Source of the DNA: Paenibacillus terrigena DSM 21567
GTDB taxonomy: Bacteria > Bacillota > Bacilli > Paenibacillales > Paenibacillaceae
NCBI RefSeq assembly: GCF_000374845.1
Contig: NZ_KB895417.1
Coordinates: forward strand, 311,661-375,660
DNA: 64,000 nucleotides
Reading direction: 5' to 3'
A model generated the notes under the pieces. The model did no database searches. It was not told where the DNA came from and saw nothing but the letters and a program-made list of their open reading frames with translations. The position numbers and the translations under genes were made by a program. Shown here piece by piece: positions 7,367 to 41,400 of this stretch (position 1 is its first letter; each line of letters starts with the position of its first letter).

Positions 7367-9031
<1,665 letters not shown>

Positions 9032-9066
9032 TCATCAGGCCAAAAACCTTGATATATCAACAAAAA

Positions 9067-9091
9067 AGGACCCGCGAGGGTCCTTTTTTTT
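9067..9091 (+). terminator. Terminator of groESL
   Basis: Stem AGGACCC / GGGTCCT with loop GCGA, then nine T residues. Confidence 0.93.
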
Positions 9092-9166
9092 AATGAAAAT
9101 CACATTTGTATCACGAAAAAATGCTACAAGTCCAAGGAAGTGTCTCGGCAGAGCCAGTTATAGCCG

Positions 9167-9689: not shown

Positions 9690-9945
9690 TGTTCTATACG
9701 TTGAAAGAGCGAAGTAGCAGCTTGTCCCTGTTCTCAGAAAGCTGGGGGTTGATGAGACCCAGTACACACAAATCCTGCGAATTACACTCTGGAGTATCTT
9801 AGGTGACCCTAAGCGGAGTAGCGATCGATAATATCGCTGAGAGTGGTATTTATGGCGACGTACGCGCTGTGAATACAATTTGGGTGGTAACACGGTTATT
9901 CAATCGTCCCGATGTCTAGAATAGACAGGGGACGATTTTTTGTTG
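9690..9945 (+). ncRNA. T-box riboswitch controlling tyrS
   Basis: The leader has the T-box layout: a long Stem I with AGAAAGCTGGGGGTTGATG, a specifier region GAATTACACTC whose TAC (9783-9785) fits tyrosine, the T-box core TGGGTGGTAACACGG (about 9880-9894), and an intrinsic terminator at 9902-9942 (CGTCCC / GGGACG then six T). Uncharged tRNA-Tyr pairing with the specifier and with the T-box should favour the antiterminator and allow tyrS transcription. Confidence 0.92.
9902..9942 (+). terminator. T-box terminator ahead of tyrS
   Basis: AATCGTCCC pairs with GGGACGATT around GATGTCTAGAATAGACAG, followed by a T run. Its left arm overlaps the region that would form the antiterminator with the T-box core. 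Confidence 0.88.
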
Positions 9946-12248: not shown

Positions 12249-14087
12249 TTGTTACATAATTTTAAACTACAATTAAGACAACCTGGGTTTATTTATGCGT
12301 TGTTGGTTTCCCTAGTAGGTTTCGCACTCTTTGTCTGGAATTTTGATAAAACTCTGTTTTCTAAATCACCATCAGACTGGGTGATGTTTTACGCATTTAT
12401 TGCATCAGTATTATTGCTTCAATGTTTTATGTTTCGAGTTCCTCCTGAAGGGAACTATGAATCTATGGATTCCGCTGTACTGATGGCAGTTCTTTTTGTA
12501 TATGGTGGAGGATATGCACTTTCAGTCTTATTTATTAGTTCTATTGTTCTTGTATTTATAGATAAGAATACAACGACACTTTGGAAACATTTATTGAATT
12601 TCAGTGCTTATACGATGATGTTGCTTGGTGCTGAAGCTTTCTTTCATTTTTCAGGAGGCCATACAGGAATATTTGAATTGAATCATCTGTTTGCATATAT
12701 AGCGTCACTATCTATGTATTCATTAATTAATGTTATCTTCATGAGTTGTTATTTTTTTATTGTGTCCAAAGTTAAGCTTCATGATATCGTAGTTGGTTTT
12801 GTAAAAGATGCGATATTTGCATATGTTAGCACCATGTTGTTGTCACTTGTTTTAGTGATGCTACTGGAGAAAAACGGGTTTTTTGGATTGTTATTGATCT
12901 CAGCAATCACTCTTTTGTTATCCTTTTCCTTCAAAAAATTATATTTGATCTACAACCAAGTAACCGAAAAAGCGAACATTGACCAGCGAACAGGACTTTA
13001 TAACCATAGCTACTTCGAAGAGAAGCTGGATGAATATATTAAGCAATATCGATCACAAGAGCGTACTTTTTCACTTGCCATGCTCGACCTAGATGATTTC
13101 AAAAAATACAATGATGCTTATGGGCACCCTGAGGGAGACAAGTTGCTAAGTTTTTTTGGTAATCTCGTAAAGAAGGAGTGCGAGCCCCATCAATTCTTAG
13201 CGGCGCGATACGGCGGCGAAGAGTTCGCGATTATTATGCCAGATTATACGTTGGATCAAGCAAAGGGATTTATAAATGGCTTAAGAAAGCTCGTGAACCA
13301 TACGCCTTACGATGGTGTAGATGTGTTCCCGCATGGCTGTATATCCTTTTCGGCAGGTTTACTTGAAATTAATAAGGACCATTATGATAAGTCGCAATTA
13401 GTCGATGCAGCGGATCGTGCCTTGTATCTGGCGAAATCTAAGGGAAAGAATATGGTATCAATCTATGGAGAACAGGATGCGCCTCCACAGCGTTTGGAAT
13501 ACGACATTCACGAGCTCGAACAGCAGGTCAAGATCTTCCTATCCAAAGACATCTACACCTACAAACACTCAAAACGTGTCTACTCCTATGCGGTGGATAT
13601 GGCAGAAGTCTTGCAGCTGAATGAAGAAGATCGTCGAACACTGATTTTAGGCGCGTTGATTCATGATATCGGCAAATTAGAGATTCCACGAGATGTGCTG
13701 AATAAGAAGACGAAGCTGACTCCGGATGAATGGGAAATGGTCAAGAAGCATGTTCTATGGGGCAAAGAAATTGTGCTAGCGACGGGCAAATATAAGGAGC
13801 TTATTCCACTTATTGAGTTGCATCACGAACGTTACGACGGCAAGGGTTACCCACATGGCTTAAAAGAAAATGAGATCCCACGGCTTGCTCGAATGCTCTG
13901 TATCATCGATTCCTTTGATGCGATGACGACAGAGCGGCCTTATCAAGCAACGAAATCGTATGAGGAAGCGTTGAATGAGATCAGACGATGTACAGGCAGT
14001 CAGTTTGATCCGGAGCTTGCTGGGTATTTTATCGCTTATATTGAAAAGAAATATACCATCGACACTTCTCGAGTGCTGACTTCCTAA
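12249..14087 (+). CDS. Membrane GGDEF plus HD-GYP cyclic-di-GMP protein
   Basis: A 612-residue protein with an N-terminal block of about seven membrane helices (residues 10-230), a GGDEF domain (RYGGEEF near 322) and a C-terminal HD-GYP domain (HDIGK near 471 and HHERYDGKGYP near 524). GGDEF domains make c-di-GMP; GGEEF is an active variant. HD-GYP domains hydrolyse c-di-GMP, and all metal-ligand His/Asp residues visible here look intact. So the protein may be bifunctional, or the GGDEF part may be a GTP sensor for the HD-GYP part. The start is TTG at 12249 with GGTAGGGAG upstream. Last gene of the DUF5317 operon. Confidence 0.9.
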   Translation: MLHNFKLQLRQPGFIYALLVSLVGFALFVWNFDKTLFSKSPSDWVMFYAFIASVLLLQCFMFRVPPEGNYESMDSAVLMAVLFVYGGGYALSVLFISSIVLVFIDKNTTTLWKHLLNFSAYTMMLLGAEAFFHFSGGHTGIFELNHLFAYIASLSMYSLINVIFMSCYFFIVSKVKLHDIVVGFVKDAIFAYVSTMLLSLVLVMLLEKNGFFGLLLISAITLLLSFSFKKLYLIYNQVTEKANIDQRTGLYNHSYFEEKLDEYIKQYRSQERTFSLAMLDLDDFKKYNDAYGHPEGDKLLSFFGNLVKKECEPHQFLAARYGGEEFAIIMPDYTLDQAKGFINGLRKLVNHTPYDGVDVFPHGCISFSAGLLEINKDHYDKSQLVDAADRALYLAKSKGKNMVSIYGEQDAPPQRLEYDIHELEQQVKIFLSKDIYTYKHSKRVYSYAVDMAEVLQLNEEDRRTLILGALIHDIGKLEIPRDVLNKKTKLTPDEWEMVKKHVLWGKEIVLATGKYKELIPLIELHHERYDGKGYPHGLKENEIPRLARMLCIIDSFDAMTTERPYQATKSYEEALNEIRRCTGSQFDPELAGYFIAYIEKKYTIDTSRVLTS

Positions 14088-16227: not shown

Positions 16228-17147
16228 AACGTTGGGTATGGATTGTCTCGATAACCGTCTTTCTGCTGCTGTGTGGCGCAGGCGGCGTTGCCTATTATGT
16301 CTACAGCTCGGTCAAAGAGACGGCGGAGCAAATGTACATCCCTGTGAAAGCCAATAAGCCGGTATATGTGAGCCAAGATACGACCGTGAAGCCAAAGACA
16401 GAACCTGTAGCTGTGGAGAAGCTCGAACCCTTCAACGTACTCGTCATGGGTGTGGATGAACGTGAACATGACCGAGGTCGGTCCGACACCATTATTGTGG
16501 TTTCTGTAAATCCGAATAAGCCATCAATGCTAATGTTCAATCTCCCTCGTGATACAAGAACCGAAATTGTAGGTCATCATTCAGTGGATAAGATGAATCA
16601 TGCTTATGCCTTTGGAGGCGTTGAGATGGCGCTTGCGACCGTAGAGAAGTTCCTCGATATGCCGATAGATTATGTCGTTAAAATTAACATGGAGGGCTTC
16701 GTGCAGCTCGTCGATTTGGTAGGTGGTGTGGAGGTCGAGAACCCGTTCGCATTTAATCAGGAAGGGGTTCATTTCAATAAAGGGACTCTGCAGCTGGACG
16801 GGGAGCATGCGCTGCTCTATACTAGGATGCGGTATGATGATCCACGCGGGGATAAGGGACGGAATGATCGTCAGCGTCAGGTATTACTTAAGCTGATGCA
16901 TACCGCGATGCAGTGGGGTAGTATCGATCGGATTCCGAGCATATTAAAGGCTCTTGGCCGAAATGTGAAGACGAACATTTCATTCGACGAGATGAAGTAT
17001 ATGTACAAGAACTATCTGCCTGCGTTTAATACCATTGATACAACCGAGGTGCAGGGGACGGGAACACGGATTAGTAACATTTACTATTACCTCGTGAATG
17101 ACAAGGAACGTAAACGGCTGCATGATCTGTTAAAATCAAATCAGTGA
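16224..17147 (+). CDS. LytR-CpsA-Psr (LCP) family cell-wall ligase
   Basis: A 307-residue protein with a short cytoplasmic N-terminus, one membrane anchor (WIVSITVFLLLCGAGGVAYYV) and an extracellular LCP domain. Typical segments are FNVLVMGVDEREHDRGRSDT, MLFNLPRDTRTEI, DKMNHAYAFGGVEMA and LYTRMRYDDPRGDKGRNDRQ, including the Arg/Asp residues that bind polyprenyl phosphate. LCP enzymes attach teichoic acids or other glycopolymers to peptidoglycan. It overlaps the upstream cupin gene by four bases, and a hairpin follows it. Confidence 0.93.
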   Translation: MKRWVWIVSITVFLLLCGAGGVAYYVYSSVKETAEQMYIPVKANKPVYVSQDTTVKPKTEPVAVEKLEPFNVLVMGVDEREHDRGRSDTIIVVSVNPNKPSMLMFNLPRDTRTEIVGHHSVDKMNHAYAFGGVEMALATVEKFLDMPIDYVVKINMEGFVQLVDLVGGVEVENPFAFNQEGVHFNKGTLQLDGEHALLYTRMRYDDPRGDKGRNDRQRQVLLKLMHTAMQWGSIDRIPSILKALGRNVKTNISFDEMKYMYKNYLPAFNTIDTTEVQGTGTRISNIYYYLVNDKERKRLHDLLKSNQ

Positions 17148-17159
17148 CGATACAGCAAA

Positions 17160-17182
17160 CCCGCCAAGTCTTTCTTGGCGGG
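17160..17182 (+). terminator. Hairpin after the LCP gene
   Basis: CCCGCCAAG / TTGGCGGG stem with a six-base loop; followed by an A/T-rich stretch but no uninterrupted T run, so efficiency is uncertain. Confidence 0.65.
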
Positions 17183-17337
17183 ATAAATTGTGTTATTTTA
17201 ACAGTATCTTATACTTTCCTTTAAAGCATGACGCGGAATAATTAGATGCGTTCGTGTCCATATTTTAGATATAGATTAACATCAAGAGACGAAAATTTTG
17301 CGACCCTATTAGACATAGAATTGTATAGTTCTAATGA

Positions 17338-17361
17338 AGTGCGTACAATTTGTGTTGTTCG
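17338..17361 (+). repeat. Left inverted repeat of the candidate invertible segment
   Basis: 24-bp arm whose inner 20 bases, CGTACAATTTGTGTTGTTCG (17342-17361), recur exactly in inverted orientation at 18420-18439; over 24 bases the match is 23/24. It lies 22 bases before the recombinase start. It contains TACAAT (17344-17349), which with TTGTAT at 17321-17326 (17-bp spacer, poor -35) could form a weak promoter for the recombinase. Confidence 0.88.
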
Positions 17362-17383
17362 CATAATAAAGGAGACCATAAGA

Positions 17384-18334
17384 TTGAAAACACAACCCAT
17401 CTTATCTCAAAGCATTATACAAATGGATCACAACAACGCTTATTCGGATGATCAAATCGTTAACATATTTCTAGCTTCGTTTCATCATTCGGCCTACACG
17501 ATACGAAATTATCGGAACGCCATTAATAAATTCAGGGATTTCCTCGGAAATAAAACGCTTAAAGAAGCGACGTGGAAAGAACTTGAGATGTATAAACTCG
17601 GGTTAATTCAGGGGTATTTAAGTAAAGGGAATAAGCCGCAAGCTCCCGCAACGGTAGCAGCTCTTATTGCACCTCTAAGATCGCTCTATAAATGGGGGAA
17701 TGATCCGAATATTGGCATTTTCGCGAACAATCCGACGACAAGTCTTCGTATTCCGAAAATAACAATCACCAGTAAGAACCACTATCTCACTGAAACGGAA
17801 TTGGTTCACCTAATCAACCAGCTTAAGAAGCAGAGTTTAAGGAATTATTTGATTGGATTGACCCTTGTCTTACTAGGGTTGCGGGTATCTGAGCTCATAT
17901 CGATTATGAAAGAGGATTTTCATACCGATCCGGGAGGAACCACCATGTGGTTGACCGTATTCGGCAAAGGCGGTAAAGAACGTGAAGTGAAAGTTCCGAA
18001 ACGATTGTGGACGATACTCTCGCAATACTTCATGATGCTGGAACAAAAATCCCCTGCTAAAGACTCGCGCATCTTCCCTATCTCTGTACGCTATATTGAG
18101 AAAATTATTCAAAATGCACGAATAGAATGCGGTCTAACCAAAGTGGTAACCCCCCACTGGCTCAGACATACGAATGCGACATTAGCCCTTCTACGCGGTG
18201 CGACCCTCCAGCAGGTACAAGAGTCCCTTGGGCATACGCATATCAATACAACACAAAGATATCTACATACTGTTCAGCAAATTCAGAAAGCAGCTCCCGA
18301 TTACGTTGAAGAATGCTTAAAAGATATCTTATAG
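17384..18334 (+). CDS. Tyrosine recombinase (candidate DNA invertase)
   Basis: A 316-residue site-specific recombinase of the XerC/D-integrase class. The N-terminal SAM-like DNA-binding domain (HHSAYTIRNYRNAINKFRDFL) is followed by a catalytic domain with all key residues: Arg in LGLRVSEL (about 167), Lys in GKGGKER (about 195), HWLRH (about 257-261), GHTHINTTQRY with the nucleophilic Tyr near 293. The TTG start at 17384 is chosen because AAAGGAG lies nine bases upstream. The gene is enclosed by 24-bp inverted repeats with an outward promoter behind it, so DNA inversion is more likely than chromosome-dimer resolution. No phage genes are adjacent. Confidence 0.9.
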   Translation: MKTQPILSQSIIQMDHNNAYSDDQIVNIFLASFHHSAYTIRNYRNAINKFRDFLGNKTLKEATWKELEMYKLGLIQGYLSKGNKPQAPATVAALIAPLRSLYKWGNDPNIGIFANNPTTSLRIPKITITSKNHYLTETELVHLINQLKKQSLRNYLIGLTLVLLGLRVSELISIMKEDFHTDPGGTTMWLTVFGKGGKEREVKVPKRLWTILSQYFMMLEQKSPAKDSRIFPISVRYIEKIIQNARIECGLTKVVTPHWLRHTNATLALLRGATLQQVQESLGHTHINTTQRYLHTVQQIQKAAPDYVEECLKDIL

Positions 18335-18344
18335 GTAAATAAGA

Positions 18345-18377
18345 CTATTATTTCGTTTAAGTCACTTGAAATAATAG
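18345..18377 (+). repeat. Inverted repeat overlapping the -35 of the outward promoter
   Basis: CTATTATTTC (18345-18354) and GAAATAATAG (18368-18377) form a perfect 10-bp inverted repeat with a 13-base loop. The right arm covers the -35 box at 18366. It may be a weak end-of-gene hairpin for the recombinase or an operator that closes the promoter. Confidence 0.6.
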
Positions 18378-18394
18378 GAAAGGTTTACTATAAT
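18366..18394 (+). promoter_or_regulatory. Strong promoter inside the inverted repeats, facing the HD-GYP gene
   Basis: TTGAAA (18366-18371), a 17-bp spacer and a perfect TATAAT (18389-18394). Transcription would start near 18401, cross the right repeat and enter the leader of the HD-GYP gene. If the 17338-18443 segment inverted, the promoter would face left, towards the end of the LCP gene, and the HD-GYP operon would lose it. Confidence 0.82.
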
Positions 18395-18419
18395 TAAATC
18401 GATATTTGTATAAAGATGT

Positions 18420-18443
18420 CGAACAACACAAATTGTACGTACT
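18420..18443 (-). repeat. Right inverted repeat of the candidate invertible segment
   Basis: Inverted copy of the 17338-17361 arm (20/20 over the inner part, 23/24 over the full arm). It lies between the outward promoter and the HD-GYP leader. Confidence 0.88.
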
Positions 18444-18475
18444 AACCATTTTACCATGTAATGGAGGTAAAGGGG

Positions 18476-18520
18476 ATGGATGCGGACAGGAATATGGGAT
18501 GGATTGTTAAAAAATGTTGA
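18476..18520 (+). CDS. 14-residue leader peptide before the HD-GYP gene
   Basis: ATG at 18476 opens MDADRNMGWIVKKC and stops at 18520. GGAGG lies eight bases upstream, a better ribosome site than that of the gene that follows. The stop codon overlaps the left arm of a hairpin at 18517-18549, the geometry of a translated leader controlling downstream expression. It is too short to assign a function. Confidence 0.5.
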   Translation: MDADRNMGWIVKKC

Positions 18521-18549
18521 AGATCCTCAATTGAGCGAGCGGTCTTCAA
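18517..18549 (+). promoter_or_regulatory. Hairpin between leader peptide and HD-GYP gene
   Basis: TTGAAGA (18517-18523) pairs with TCTTCAA (18543-18549), extended by a G-U and a G-C pair. It is followed by TTTCTT, only a partial T run, so it could be a weak attenuator or an RNA-processing stem. Confidence 0.5.
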
Positions 18550-18584
18550 TTTCTTATGCATAACATGGCGAAGAAGGTGAGGTA

Positions 18585-19271
18585 TTGCGATACGTTCACA
18601 TCTCGGAAGTGCTGCATGACTTGTTGGAGAAAGACAAGATCACGTACGAGCATAGTATCCGGGTGGGATATTTAGCGAAATGTATAGCGAAGCAATTACA
18701 ACTAACCAAGACGCAAGCGAGTCAGCTGATTATGGGTTGTTGTCTTCATGATATCGGTAAAATTCTAATTCCGACGGAGATTCTGACGAAGGATACGCAA
18801 TTGACGGCATATGAATGGGATGTCATGAGACAACACCCGATCCTTGGGGCAGAACGACTATCGTTACTCCAGCTCGGTAGTCGTACGGTTATGGATATCG
18901 TCAAATATCATCATGAACGGTGGAATGGCGAGGGTTACCCTTCCGGATTAATGTGGGATAATATCCCTCCGTTTGCACGGATATGCGCAGTCATTGATGC
19001 CTTGGACAGGATGATATCAGATCAGCCTTATCGACCGGCAATGACGCTTGAGGAGGCTAAGGCTGAATTAATTCGCAACACCAATAGTCAATTTGATAAA
19101 AAATACGTTGCAGCATGTCTACGAATCCCGGATGAAGAATTATTGAGGAAGGAGATCGATATTCTAGAGCTGCTAAAGGACATGGGAGTGAAGGAGGAAC
19201 AACATGACAATTTCAACTTTATTTCCAGTGATGCAAAGCGAGTTTCTAGACGAAGCTACAGCACAAATTAA
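18585..19271 (+). CDS. Stand-alone HD-GYP phosphodiesterase
   Basis: A 228-residue protein consisting almost only of an HD-GYP domain, expected to hydrolyse c-di-GMP. Metal ligands are visible: His in YEHSIRVG, HDIGK (HD at 55-56), HPILGAE, and HHERWNGEGYP with GYP at 117-119; the D-x-x-D region (VIDALDRM) also fits. The start is TTG at 18585 with GGTGAGG upstream. Its 3' end overlaps the next gene by 68 bases. The promoter that would drive it lies inside the adjacent inverted-repeat segment, so expression may be phase variable. Confidence 0.88.
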   Translation: MRYVHISEVLHDLLEKDKITYEHSIRVGYLAKCIAKQLQLTKTQASQLIMGCCLHDIGKILIPTEILTKDTQLTAYEWDVMRQHPILGAERLSLLQLGSRTVMDIVKYHHERWNGEGYPSGLMWDNIPPFARICAVIDALDRMISDQPYRPAMTLEEAKAELIRNTNSQFDKKYVAACLRIPDEELLRKEIDILELLKDMGVKEEQHDNFNFISSDAKRVSRRSYSTN

Positions 19272-19908
19272 TTATGTAGGTCAAGAAATCAAAAAGGTAG
19301 ATTTGTCGCACAAGTCCAATCGATTATTAGAAGTTGAGCAAATGAAACAACTCAGATATGAAATGGAACGGTTGTTGAACCTTGTACGGCATTGGAAGCT
19401 GAACATGACTCACGATATTATTAATCTGGTTTTTCGCTGTATGGATCAAATGCGAATGCTGAAGGATGCGATCCTGCTTGGATATAACGTCACAGCGGAT
19501 GTTATACCGTTGCTTCGAGAATTAAGAGGTTACGCCGAGACAAGTGAGAAGAACGCCAACATGCGTCAAGACATATTAAGCAGTATTTCAGCAGAGGCTG
19601 GCAAGGCATTCAACCTGGATGCTATCATCCATCGCATTCAGAATGAAGGAATTCGTGTGCTTCAGATTCAGGTTGGTCTCGCTTCCCGATGCATGATGAA
19701 GATGGCCTGTGCGATGGTTATACTGGATCAGATCGGCTCCTTGGTCGGGGAGGTGTTGTATATGGAGCCGTCCAGCGATGAGGCAGGAGAGGACTCCTAC
19801 AGCAAGGTTCGATACGTCGTCGTGGATCCCGTTCGCGTGGACGATATTCAGGGGTGGCTGCAATCGATGCGGGATGTTACCTATGTCGATGTTCACTTCA
19901 AGGTTTAA
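19204..19908 (+). CDS. CheA P1/P2-like protein lacking kinase domains
   Basis: A 234-residue soluble protein. Residues about 8-105 are helical and resemble the later helices of a CheA HPt (P1) domain (LLNLVRHWKLNMTHDIINLV, then FRCMDQMRMLKDAI). The HTLKG-type phosphorylation motif is absent. Residues about 146-234 resemble the CheY-binding P2 domain: IQVGLASRCMMKMACAMVIL, then LVGEVLYMEPSS, ending MRDVTYVDVHF, comparable with the DCMLKAVRVYMVFEKL...VGEV and VSEIEKVEV pattern of B. subtilis CheA. There are no dimerisation, ATPase or CheW-like domains. AAGGAGG precedes the ATG at 19204, inside the end of the HD-GYP gene. It may bind a CheY-type receiver; this is inference. Confidence 0.6.
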   Translation: MTISTLFPVMQSEFLDEATAQINYVGQEIKKVDLSHKSNRLLEVEQMKQLRYEMERLLNLVRHWKLNMTHDIINLVFRCMDQMRMLKDAILLGYNVTADVIPLLRELRGYAETSEKNANMRQDILSSISAEAGKAFNLDAIIHRIQNEGIRVLQIQVGLASRCMMKMACAMVILDQIGSLVGEVLYMEPSSDEAGEDSYSKVRYVVVDPVRVDDIQGWLQSMRDVTYVDVHFKV

Positions 19909-19934
19909 CTAATCCGTCACGGTTTCGTGTAGGA

Positions 19935-19969
19935 AAAAGCGCCGCCATCTATCAAGATGCGGCGCTTTC
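19935..19969. terminator. Terminator after the CheA-like gene
   Basis: AAAAGCGCCGC pairs with GCGGCGCTTTC, with an inner ATCT/AGAT extension. A run of A on one side and TTTCGGTTTT on the other allow use from either direction. Confidence 0.8.
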
Positions 19970-20047
19970 GGTTTTCCTCCCGCCACCAGAAACCGCAGAG
20001 AGAATCCTTGGCGGTTGATTTTTGGAGTTCGTGGGGTTGGTCAGGTT

Positions 20048-20206
20048 ATTTCAAATGAATCTAAGATGGAAGGGTAGAACTCACGGAAAAGTCTACGTCC
20101 GGTCTTTGGCAGCCCATTTCATCCATCCAATCCAATCAAGGAAATGGGCGAACAAGAACCGGTTGGAGAGAGGTCTACCGTGGAATCGGCCAAATTCATT
20201 TGAAAT
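20048..20206. repeat. 159-base nested inverted-repeat structure, unknown
   Basis: ATTTCAAATGAAT (20048-20060) is exactly inverted at 20194-20206. Nested inside are GGTAGA/TCTACC (20073-20078, 20174-20179), CCGG (20099-20102, 20159-20162) and CCCATTTC/GAAATGGG (20113-20120, 20141-20148). The last two lie ten bases apart on both sides. No credible gene is present. The stretch could fold into one long imperfect hairpin, as in a small RNA or a MITE-like relic. Confidence 0.55.
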
Positions 20207-41180: not shown

Positions 41181-41214
41181 GGACGCGCAAATAAACATCC
41201 GTTCCCCCTAGTCG

Positions 41215-41400
41215 AGTTTTGGCACTATACAACGTAAAGAGATGGATGCATCTCTTAGCCACCTTATGAAAAGCCTTAATCCGGCAATCCCTGTTCTACC
41301 CATTGGCATCTTTCGATGTTTCCGGGCAGTGGCCTGTATTTGTATAGGAGCCTCACCTAACGAGGACATATGAATACTTCCGCATGATACTCCCGATGAA
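41215..41400 (-). ncRNA. M-box (ykoK) magnesium riboswitch
   Basis: The minus strand carries the M-box core CGTTAGGTGAGGCTCCTATA, then ACAGGCCACTGCCCGG, GAAAGATGCCAATGGG and GGATTAAGGC, in the known order. High Mg2+ should stabilise the aptamer and favour the downstream terminator at 41148-41180, shutting off mgtA. Confidence 0.93.

Follow-up and report, generated by a model that had tools for sequence, protein, structure and literature searches.

The segment at positions 17338-18443 raises the question of whether Paenibacillus terrigena DSM 21567 carries a piece of DNA that encodes the enzyme for its own inversion and that, by turning a promoter towards or away from the neighbouring genes, switches a predicted c-di-GMP phosphodiesterase on and off. 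We analysed a stretch of 64,000 nucleotides, here called the window, in whose coordinates all positions are given unless a locus is prefixed; the source genome comprises 6.36 Mb in 40 contigs. An initial annotation made from the letters alone had proposed an invertible promoter with its own recombinase at this place. Our comparison with related genomes supports this proposal by swapped flanks, assemblies containing two states, matched spacers and a conserved promoter, although inversion is not shown in the strain itself. We assign a probability of about 0.88 to the reading that the segment would act as a self-encoded phase-variation on/off switch of an HD-GYP/chemotaxis operon, with the window presenting the putative ON state.

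Arms, recombinase and recombination sites

The segment spans 1.1 kb and is bounded by inverted recombination sites, between which lie the recombinase gene and an outward-directed promoter (Table 1). We were able to reproduce the arms of the initial annotation in their positions and in their identity of 23/24 nt overall and 20/20 nt in the inner core; 1058 nt separate them, and the remaining inverted pairs spanning the region within 16500-19500 are just 12-13 nt long. The same scan revealed an imperfect 20-nt palindrome at 18543-18574, i.e. beyond the arms. Neither the segment nor the leader contains an Rfam match above the gathering score; elsewhere in the window, a T-box leader (9692-9914, forward strand) and an M-box magnesium riboswitch (41197-41371, reverse strand) exceed it. 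Searching the genome with the 17-base arm core and allowing up to three mismatches resulted in 22 matches compared to 9 for the reversed control. Exact copies of this core in the window's own assembly are restricted to the two arms, and no inverted junction was found there.

Table 1. Features of the segment and of the adjoining genes in window coordinates.
Feature	Position	Strand	Remarks
Left arm	17338..17361	+	recombination site 17339-17364; 6-bp spacer TTTGTG at 17349-17354
Likely ribosome-binding site AAGGAG of the recombinase	17369..17374	+	from sequence; same in relative L010
Tyrosine recombinase (invertase)	17384..18334	+	316 aa; probable TTG start; intact; PF00589 7.4e-22
Outward sigma-A-type promoter TTGAAA-17-TATAAT	18366..18394	+	11/12; conserved in the family
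Right arm	18420..18443	-	recombination site 18417-18442; spacer 18427-18432
Leader outside the segment	18444..18584	+	best sigma-A-like match only 6/12
HD-GYP domain protein, predicted c-di-GMP phosphodiesterase; proposed controlled gene	18585..19271	+	PF13487 1.2e-32
CheA-fragment protein, P2 (CheY-binding) domain	19204..19908	+	overlaps the HD-GYP gene; Pfam 1.5e-5

The longest open reading frame of the recombinase begins at 17246, beyond the left arm, and it is the TTG codon with AAGGAG upstream which places the coding sequence within the segment, an assignment of the start that rests on sequence only. The residues R167, H258, R261, H284 and Y293, which we take to be the catalytic ones, are invariant. 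The gene is present in a single copy in its genome, in which eight further matches show 28-38% identity. Among named families and solved structures, XerA, XerC and XerD are closest (XerA 5hxy, 9.2e-28) and share the dif-like site, whereas the recombinase scores below their curated cut-offs (XerA 149.8 vs 220, XerC 137 vs 335, XerD 120 vs 330) and, unlike them, has paired inverted sites around its own gene. A function in chromosome-dimer resolution by Xer was rejected based on these scores, the arm architecture and the spacers.

Only one other genome of the genus, which is represented by three genomes including the window's own, carries the element; this locus, L010, shows 97% protein identity, conserved arms and the same orientation. 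The single orientation in the window and L010 would also be expected if the switch were a locked, degenerate relic in this strain and worked in its relatives only. We regard this as unlikely, as the gene is intact, both sites are intact with identical spacers, and the recombinase differs from that of L010 by 79 synonymous compared to 10 nonsynonymous codons; judged from these codon differences, the recombinase is under purifying selection. Outside the left arm, at 17245-17303, 59 bases are identical to L010, whereas similarity in the neighbouring flanks is about 85-90%. For a core of 30 bases in this stretch, the fetched loci beyond the genomes of the window and L010 contain no exact match, and the stretch possibly serves to control the recombinase.

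When the arms of the family are aligned by their centre, they follow the dif-like pattern TGTCGYACAA-N6-TTRTNCGACA. Within a locus the 6-bp spacer is the same on the left and on the right in 79/79 rows (78 loci and the window; L103 was left out due to its low score), and there are 32 different spacers among them. Mismatches between left and right sites amount to 0% at site positions 8-17, to up to 15% at positions 1-23 and to 25-30% at the site edges, and from two bases outside the 26-mer they mostly exceed 50%. The arms were picked as the best inverted repeats, which favours matches and partly helps the spacer identity but does not create the hard central core. Tyrosine recombination demands constant half-sites and a spacer that matches within the locus, and the spacer identity within loci fits this demand of site-specific recombination. 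A chance repeat as the source of the arms was rejected, since arms recur across the family and spacers match within loci. Spacers differ between those copies in the same genome that were compared by eye, approximately as expected by chance given 32 spacers, and we do not count this in favour of insulation between copies.

Three Cohnella loci show peculiarities of their sites. In Cohnella laeviribosi (L080) the inverted repeat is extended to 73 nt (7914-7986 and 9049-9121), taking in the apparent ribosome-binding site and the start codon of the recombinase at both interior ends. In Cohnella thermotolerans, the exact site core is present three times at L121, the additional copy lying in the left flank (L121:7809), and this may permit larger or different inversions as well as a deletion. 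The C. thermotolerans locus L103 has lost the outer half of its right site, being either locked or affected by an assembly error near the contig end.

Distribution and orientation in relatives

Of 394 genomes in the family, 84 encode a recombinase relative at E≤1e-50. A scan of named genomes yielded 103 relatives, and we retained the best 80; these belong mostly to Paenibacillus and also to Cohnella, Brevibacillus, Aneurinibacillus, Tepidibacillus, Fontibacillus and Gorillibacterium, with two or three copies of the element in some genomes. The sister genome G002 has no recombinase match at E≤1e-40, and its HD-GYP gene is missing, too; between syntenic flanks it holds other DNA at the place of the module (L143:8128-11305, corresponding to about 17147-20065 of the window), with an ORF of 495 aa and another of 189 aa, the latter resembling a sigma factor on visual inspection. 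Arms enclose the recombinase gene in 79/79 assessable loci of the best 80 of 103, in L103 only partly (15 nt); L067 is masked by N and L108 is cut by a contig end. The same holds for 29/30 loci from the genus and family searches, 13 of which are identical to named loci and one of which, L009, is the window's own. In the exception, L020 (L154:7194-7430 of genome G047), the inverted sites bound a 237-bp segment beside the recombinase gene with a CheW-MCP gene pair on the opposite side, showing that the recombinase lies outside its switch there.

The initial annotation had suggested comparing the orientation of the segment between strains. Opposite orientations do occur between close relatives, while the window and its nearest relative L010 are alike. 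In the pairs L087/L118, L106/L110, L119/L116 and L076/L079, which represent close species, the flanks are swapped and the interior is aligned unchanged. The flank alignments stop at most 2 bases from the arms in L087/L118 and at most about 5 bases from them in L119/L116; the swap is just as clear in L106/L110, with small gaps, and in L076/L079 one flank alignment ends about 50 bases short. Where two loci share 300 nt of flank or more, their orientation is the same in 227 pairs and opposite in 93, many of these pairs being non-independent. At least 14 orientation changes are required by a quick tree that comprises 81 recombinases, 76 of them labelled; 32/78 inner branches of this tree are weak and it lacks a shuffle control.

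Signs of both states are also present within single assemblies. Contig ends lie within 100 nt outside an arm in five cases compared to 0.18 expected, and junctions of both orientations were found in 3/3 inspected assemblies of the five with such contig ends, i.e. P. sabuli IB182496, P. brevis MSJ-6 and P. daejeonensis DSM 15491. In P. sabuli, the HD-side flank joins both interior ends, over 92 nt at a contig start. In P. brevis, the left end of the interior joins the HD-side flank in one contig, and a second contig ends with its junction to a different flank. P. daejeonensis follows the pattern of P. brevis, the second junction preceding a 100-N gap; in this case, a second copy collapsed in the assembly is still possible.

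Outward promoter and proposed controlled genes

The initial annotation had assigned a near-consensus promoter directed at the HD-GYP gene, and this assignment holds on the basis of the sequence pattern: it is the best sigma-70-like match in 17100-18700 (11/12), and an outward promoter is conserved in 60/73 loci compared to 12% in dinucleotide shuffles of the interval from the recombinase stop to the right arm. The inward strand of the same interval yields 7/73 compared to 9.5% in shuffles. The five sigma-70-like matches in 17100-18700 are not above shuffles (4.6, sd 2.4), and the weight of the promoter therefore rests on its conservation in the family. In the HD-side leader outside the arm, a sigma-A promoter was found in 1/60 loci compared to 4.7% in shuffles, i.e. 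none above chance. A promoter was defined as a 17-spaced, sigma-A-like match of at least 9/12, leaving other sigma factors outside the scope; 73 of 80 loci entered the promoter count (7 dropped for length or N) and 60 of 65 the leader count (5 dropped for length or N). A separate count with spacers of 16-18 agrees.

A TACAAT in the left arm had been proposed as a possible means of expressing the recombinase in either orientation; this finds no support in the family. The window's left arm does contain TTGTAT-17-TACAAT. Outside the arms, a -35 element with at least 4/6 matches occurs in 9/19, 4/19, 7/55 and 4/52 rows of four flank classes (74 rows) compared to 14% in shuffles, the 9/19 class being left flanks of loci with HD-GYP on the right. 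Considering the other three classes and the lack of enrichment in the distal flank when located on the right, we did not accept a left-arm promoter. A terminator or attenuator in the HD-GYP leader was likewise dropped as a family feature, with terminator-like hairpins in 5/64 leaders (7.8%) compared to 5.3% in shuffles; the window's leader stretch folds with z = -2.57 and is not among these five.

The HD-GYP gene was named correctly as the target in the initial annotation, and HD-GYP genes are the most frequent partners across the family. The encoded protein has the HDxGK, HHE and GxGYP residues, presumably the motif of HD-GYP phosphodiesterases, which are 97-100% conserved across 58 aligned proteins. 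The second gene, described before as CheA-like, is related to CheA by its P2 domain; this is the only domain detected by Pfam, with no HPt, dimerisation or kinase domain found, so the product looks like a CheA fragment and not like a kinase. We infer that it is probably co-transcribed with the HD-GYP gene. A further gene for a GGDEF and HD-GYP protein is located at 12249-14087, upstream of the switch by about 3.3 kb.

In all 74/74 loci with a match to an HD-GYP, CheW, CheA or MCP model within 1500 nt of an arm, the nearest match points away from the segment. Among the best 80 of 103 relatives the nearest partner is HD-GYP in 64 loci, CheW in 7 and MCP in 3, and counting all chemotaxis or c-di-GMP partners pointing away adds 13 loci to the 64 with HD-GYP. 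The partner lies on the 5' side of the recombinase in 56 loci and on the 3' side in 18; taking all model matches within 1500 nt, 121 point away and 4 toward the segment. The neighbour models were made from the commonest neighbours themselves. Six loci lack a model match. Three of them have another gene pointing away, namely EAL in L073 and L086 and GGDEF-EAL in L114. Of the rest, L067 is masked, the contig of L075 stops 100 nt beyond the arm, and a SecA-like gene accompanies L065. This SecA-like partner is present in L065 (P. dendritiformis) and in three relatives (L127-L129), showing that the link to c-di-GMP is not absolute. Past it lie a gene for an SLH-domain protein (L127) or a repeat-rich 670-aa ORF (L129), and element and SecA-like gene in L065 and L127-L129 are a candidate for a phase-variable surface-protein secretion operon. 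A gene for PilZ, a c-di-GMP receptor domain, comes after the HD-GYP partner in L131 and L132.

The distal gene likewise points away in 32/68 loci with a gene called, examples being TatD-like and HI0933-like flavoprotein genes, suggesting that it may be a second target of the switch in some species and that the OFF state may turn on something else there. These distal genes and the absence of expression data leave room for a model according to which the segment inverts while another promoter drives the HD-GYP operon, the inversion having little regulatory effect or acting mainly on the distal gene. We consider this very unlikely, because outward promoters are present in 60/73 loci compared to 1/60 HD-side leaders, albeit for the sigma-A pattern only, and because the kind of partner is constant whereas the distal gene varies.

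The least likely alternative is a small, transposon-like mobile element that encodes its own recombinase, is bounded by terminal inverted repeats and came to lie beside the HD-GYP gene by chance. For this, the sporadic spread in the family, the absence in G002 and the multiple copies in some genomes could be put forward, but it is disfavoured by a partner that is nearly always a c-di-GMP/chemotaxis gene pointing away, by arms that are palindromic recombination sites with locus-specific spacers, by related loci differing through in-place inversion and by G002, the sole segment-less genome inspected, being without HD-GYP as well.

A model of the switch and its relation to known systems

Comparison of the loci shows the site architecture, the inversion in relatives, the direction of the promoter and the type of partner being conserved. 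This supports a model of a self-encoded switch according to which the recombinase made inside the segment would bind both arms at the half-sites TGTCGNACAA/TTNTNCGACA and exchange strands across the 6-bp spacer; the two sites being inverted, this exchange would flip the 1.06-kb interior. In the orientation of the window, the promoter behind the recombinase gene would read through the right arm into the genes for HD-GYP and the CheA-P2 fragment (ON). After the flip it would face the other flank, leaving the HD-GYP operon without a recognisable promoter (OFF). With a conserved outward promoter and none above chance in the HD-side leader, the arrangement with the partner on the 3' side (window, L010 and 18 named loci) is predicted to be ON and that with the partner on the 5' side (56 loci) to be OFF. 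Together with the level of HD-GYP, that of c-di-GMP would thereby vary between cells of one clone, with probable consequences for their motility or their attachment to surfaces. Strand exchange by the recombinase, the effect on transcription, the phosphodiesterase activity and the phenotype are inferred.

We lean only slightly towards the wider interpretation of a switch family across the Paenibacillaceae and some neighbouring Bacilli that is dedicated to phase-variable c-di-GMP/chemotaxis operons, with its own recombinase and spacer at each locus so that copies flip independently.

In the Hin switch of Salmonella, the recombinase gene lies inside the flipping segment together with an outward promoter; Hin belongs to the serine recombinases, and its target is flagellin. 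The proposed Paenibacillus switch resembles it in its mode of action, i.e. in the enclosed recombinase gene and the outward promoter, and differs in class, with a tyrosine (PF00589) instead of a serine recombinase. As far as the accessible parts of the report go, the pdcB switch (Cdi2) and the pdcC switch of C. difficile combine an invertible promoter and short inverted repeats with a c-di-GMP phosphodiesterase as target (PMC9286219), and these traits are shared by the switch proposed here, whose phosphodiesterase is a predicted one. The pdcB switch comprises 174 bp, lies 840 bp upstream of its gene and controls an EAL enzyme, the recombinase being unidentified there (PMC9286219, in part); in contrast to this segment, which is too short for a recombinase gene, the Paenibacillus switch encloses its recombinase and has an HD-GYP partner. 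According to portions of another paper, Desulfitobacterium, C. thermocellum and Anaerotignum possess invertible sites close to genes for chemotaxis or for an HD-type phosphodiesterase, similar in the kinds of partner genes, and an 844-bp segment near fimbriae of Providencia stuartii encloses a recombinase as in our case (PMC5903667). The Hin switch is named there as well. Within the limits of these portions, partner kind and enclosed recombinase are separate in those other lineages, whereas the Paenibacillaceae combine both in one recurring module. We found no description for Paenibacillus in the open-access literature that was searched; Cohnella, Brevibacillus and other genera were outside this search. 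Precedents are known with Hin and C. difficile pdcB.

For P. polymyxa, phase variation with two colony types is described, the mechanism of which is yet to be elucidated according to the portion of the report available (PMC3694910). The switch provides a candidate mechanism of phase variation in the wider Paenibacillus group with defined sites, enzyme, promoter and target, its presence in P. polymyxa not being shown. DNA inversion coupled to c-di-GMP/chemotaxis genes, as described in Clostridia, recurs in the Paenibacillaceae as a compact module. If the copies of a switch family do flip independently, the two or three copies per genome would give a combinatorial set of motile and sessile states.
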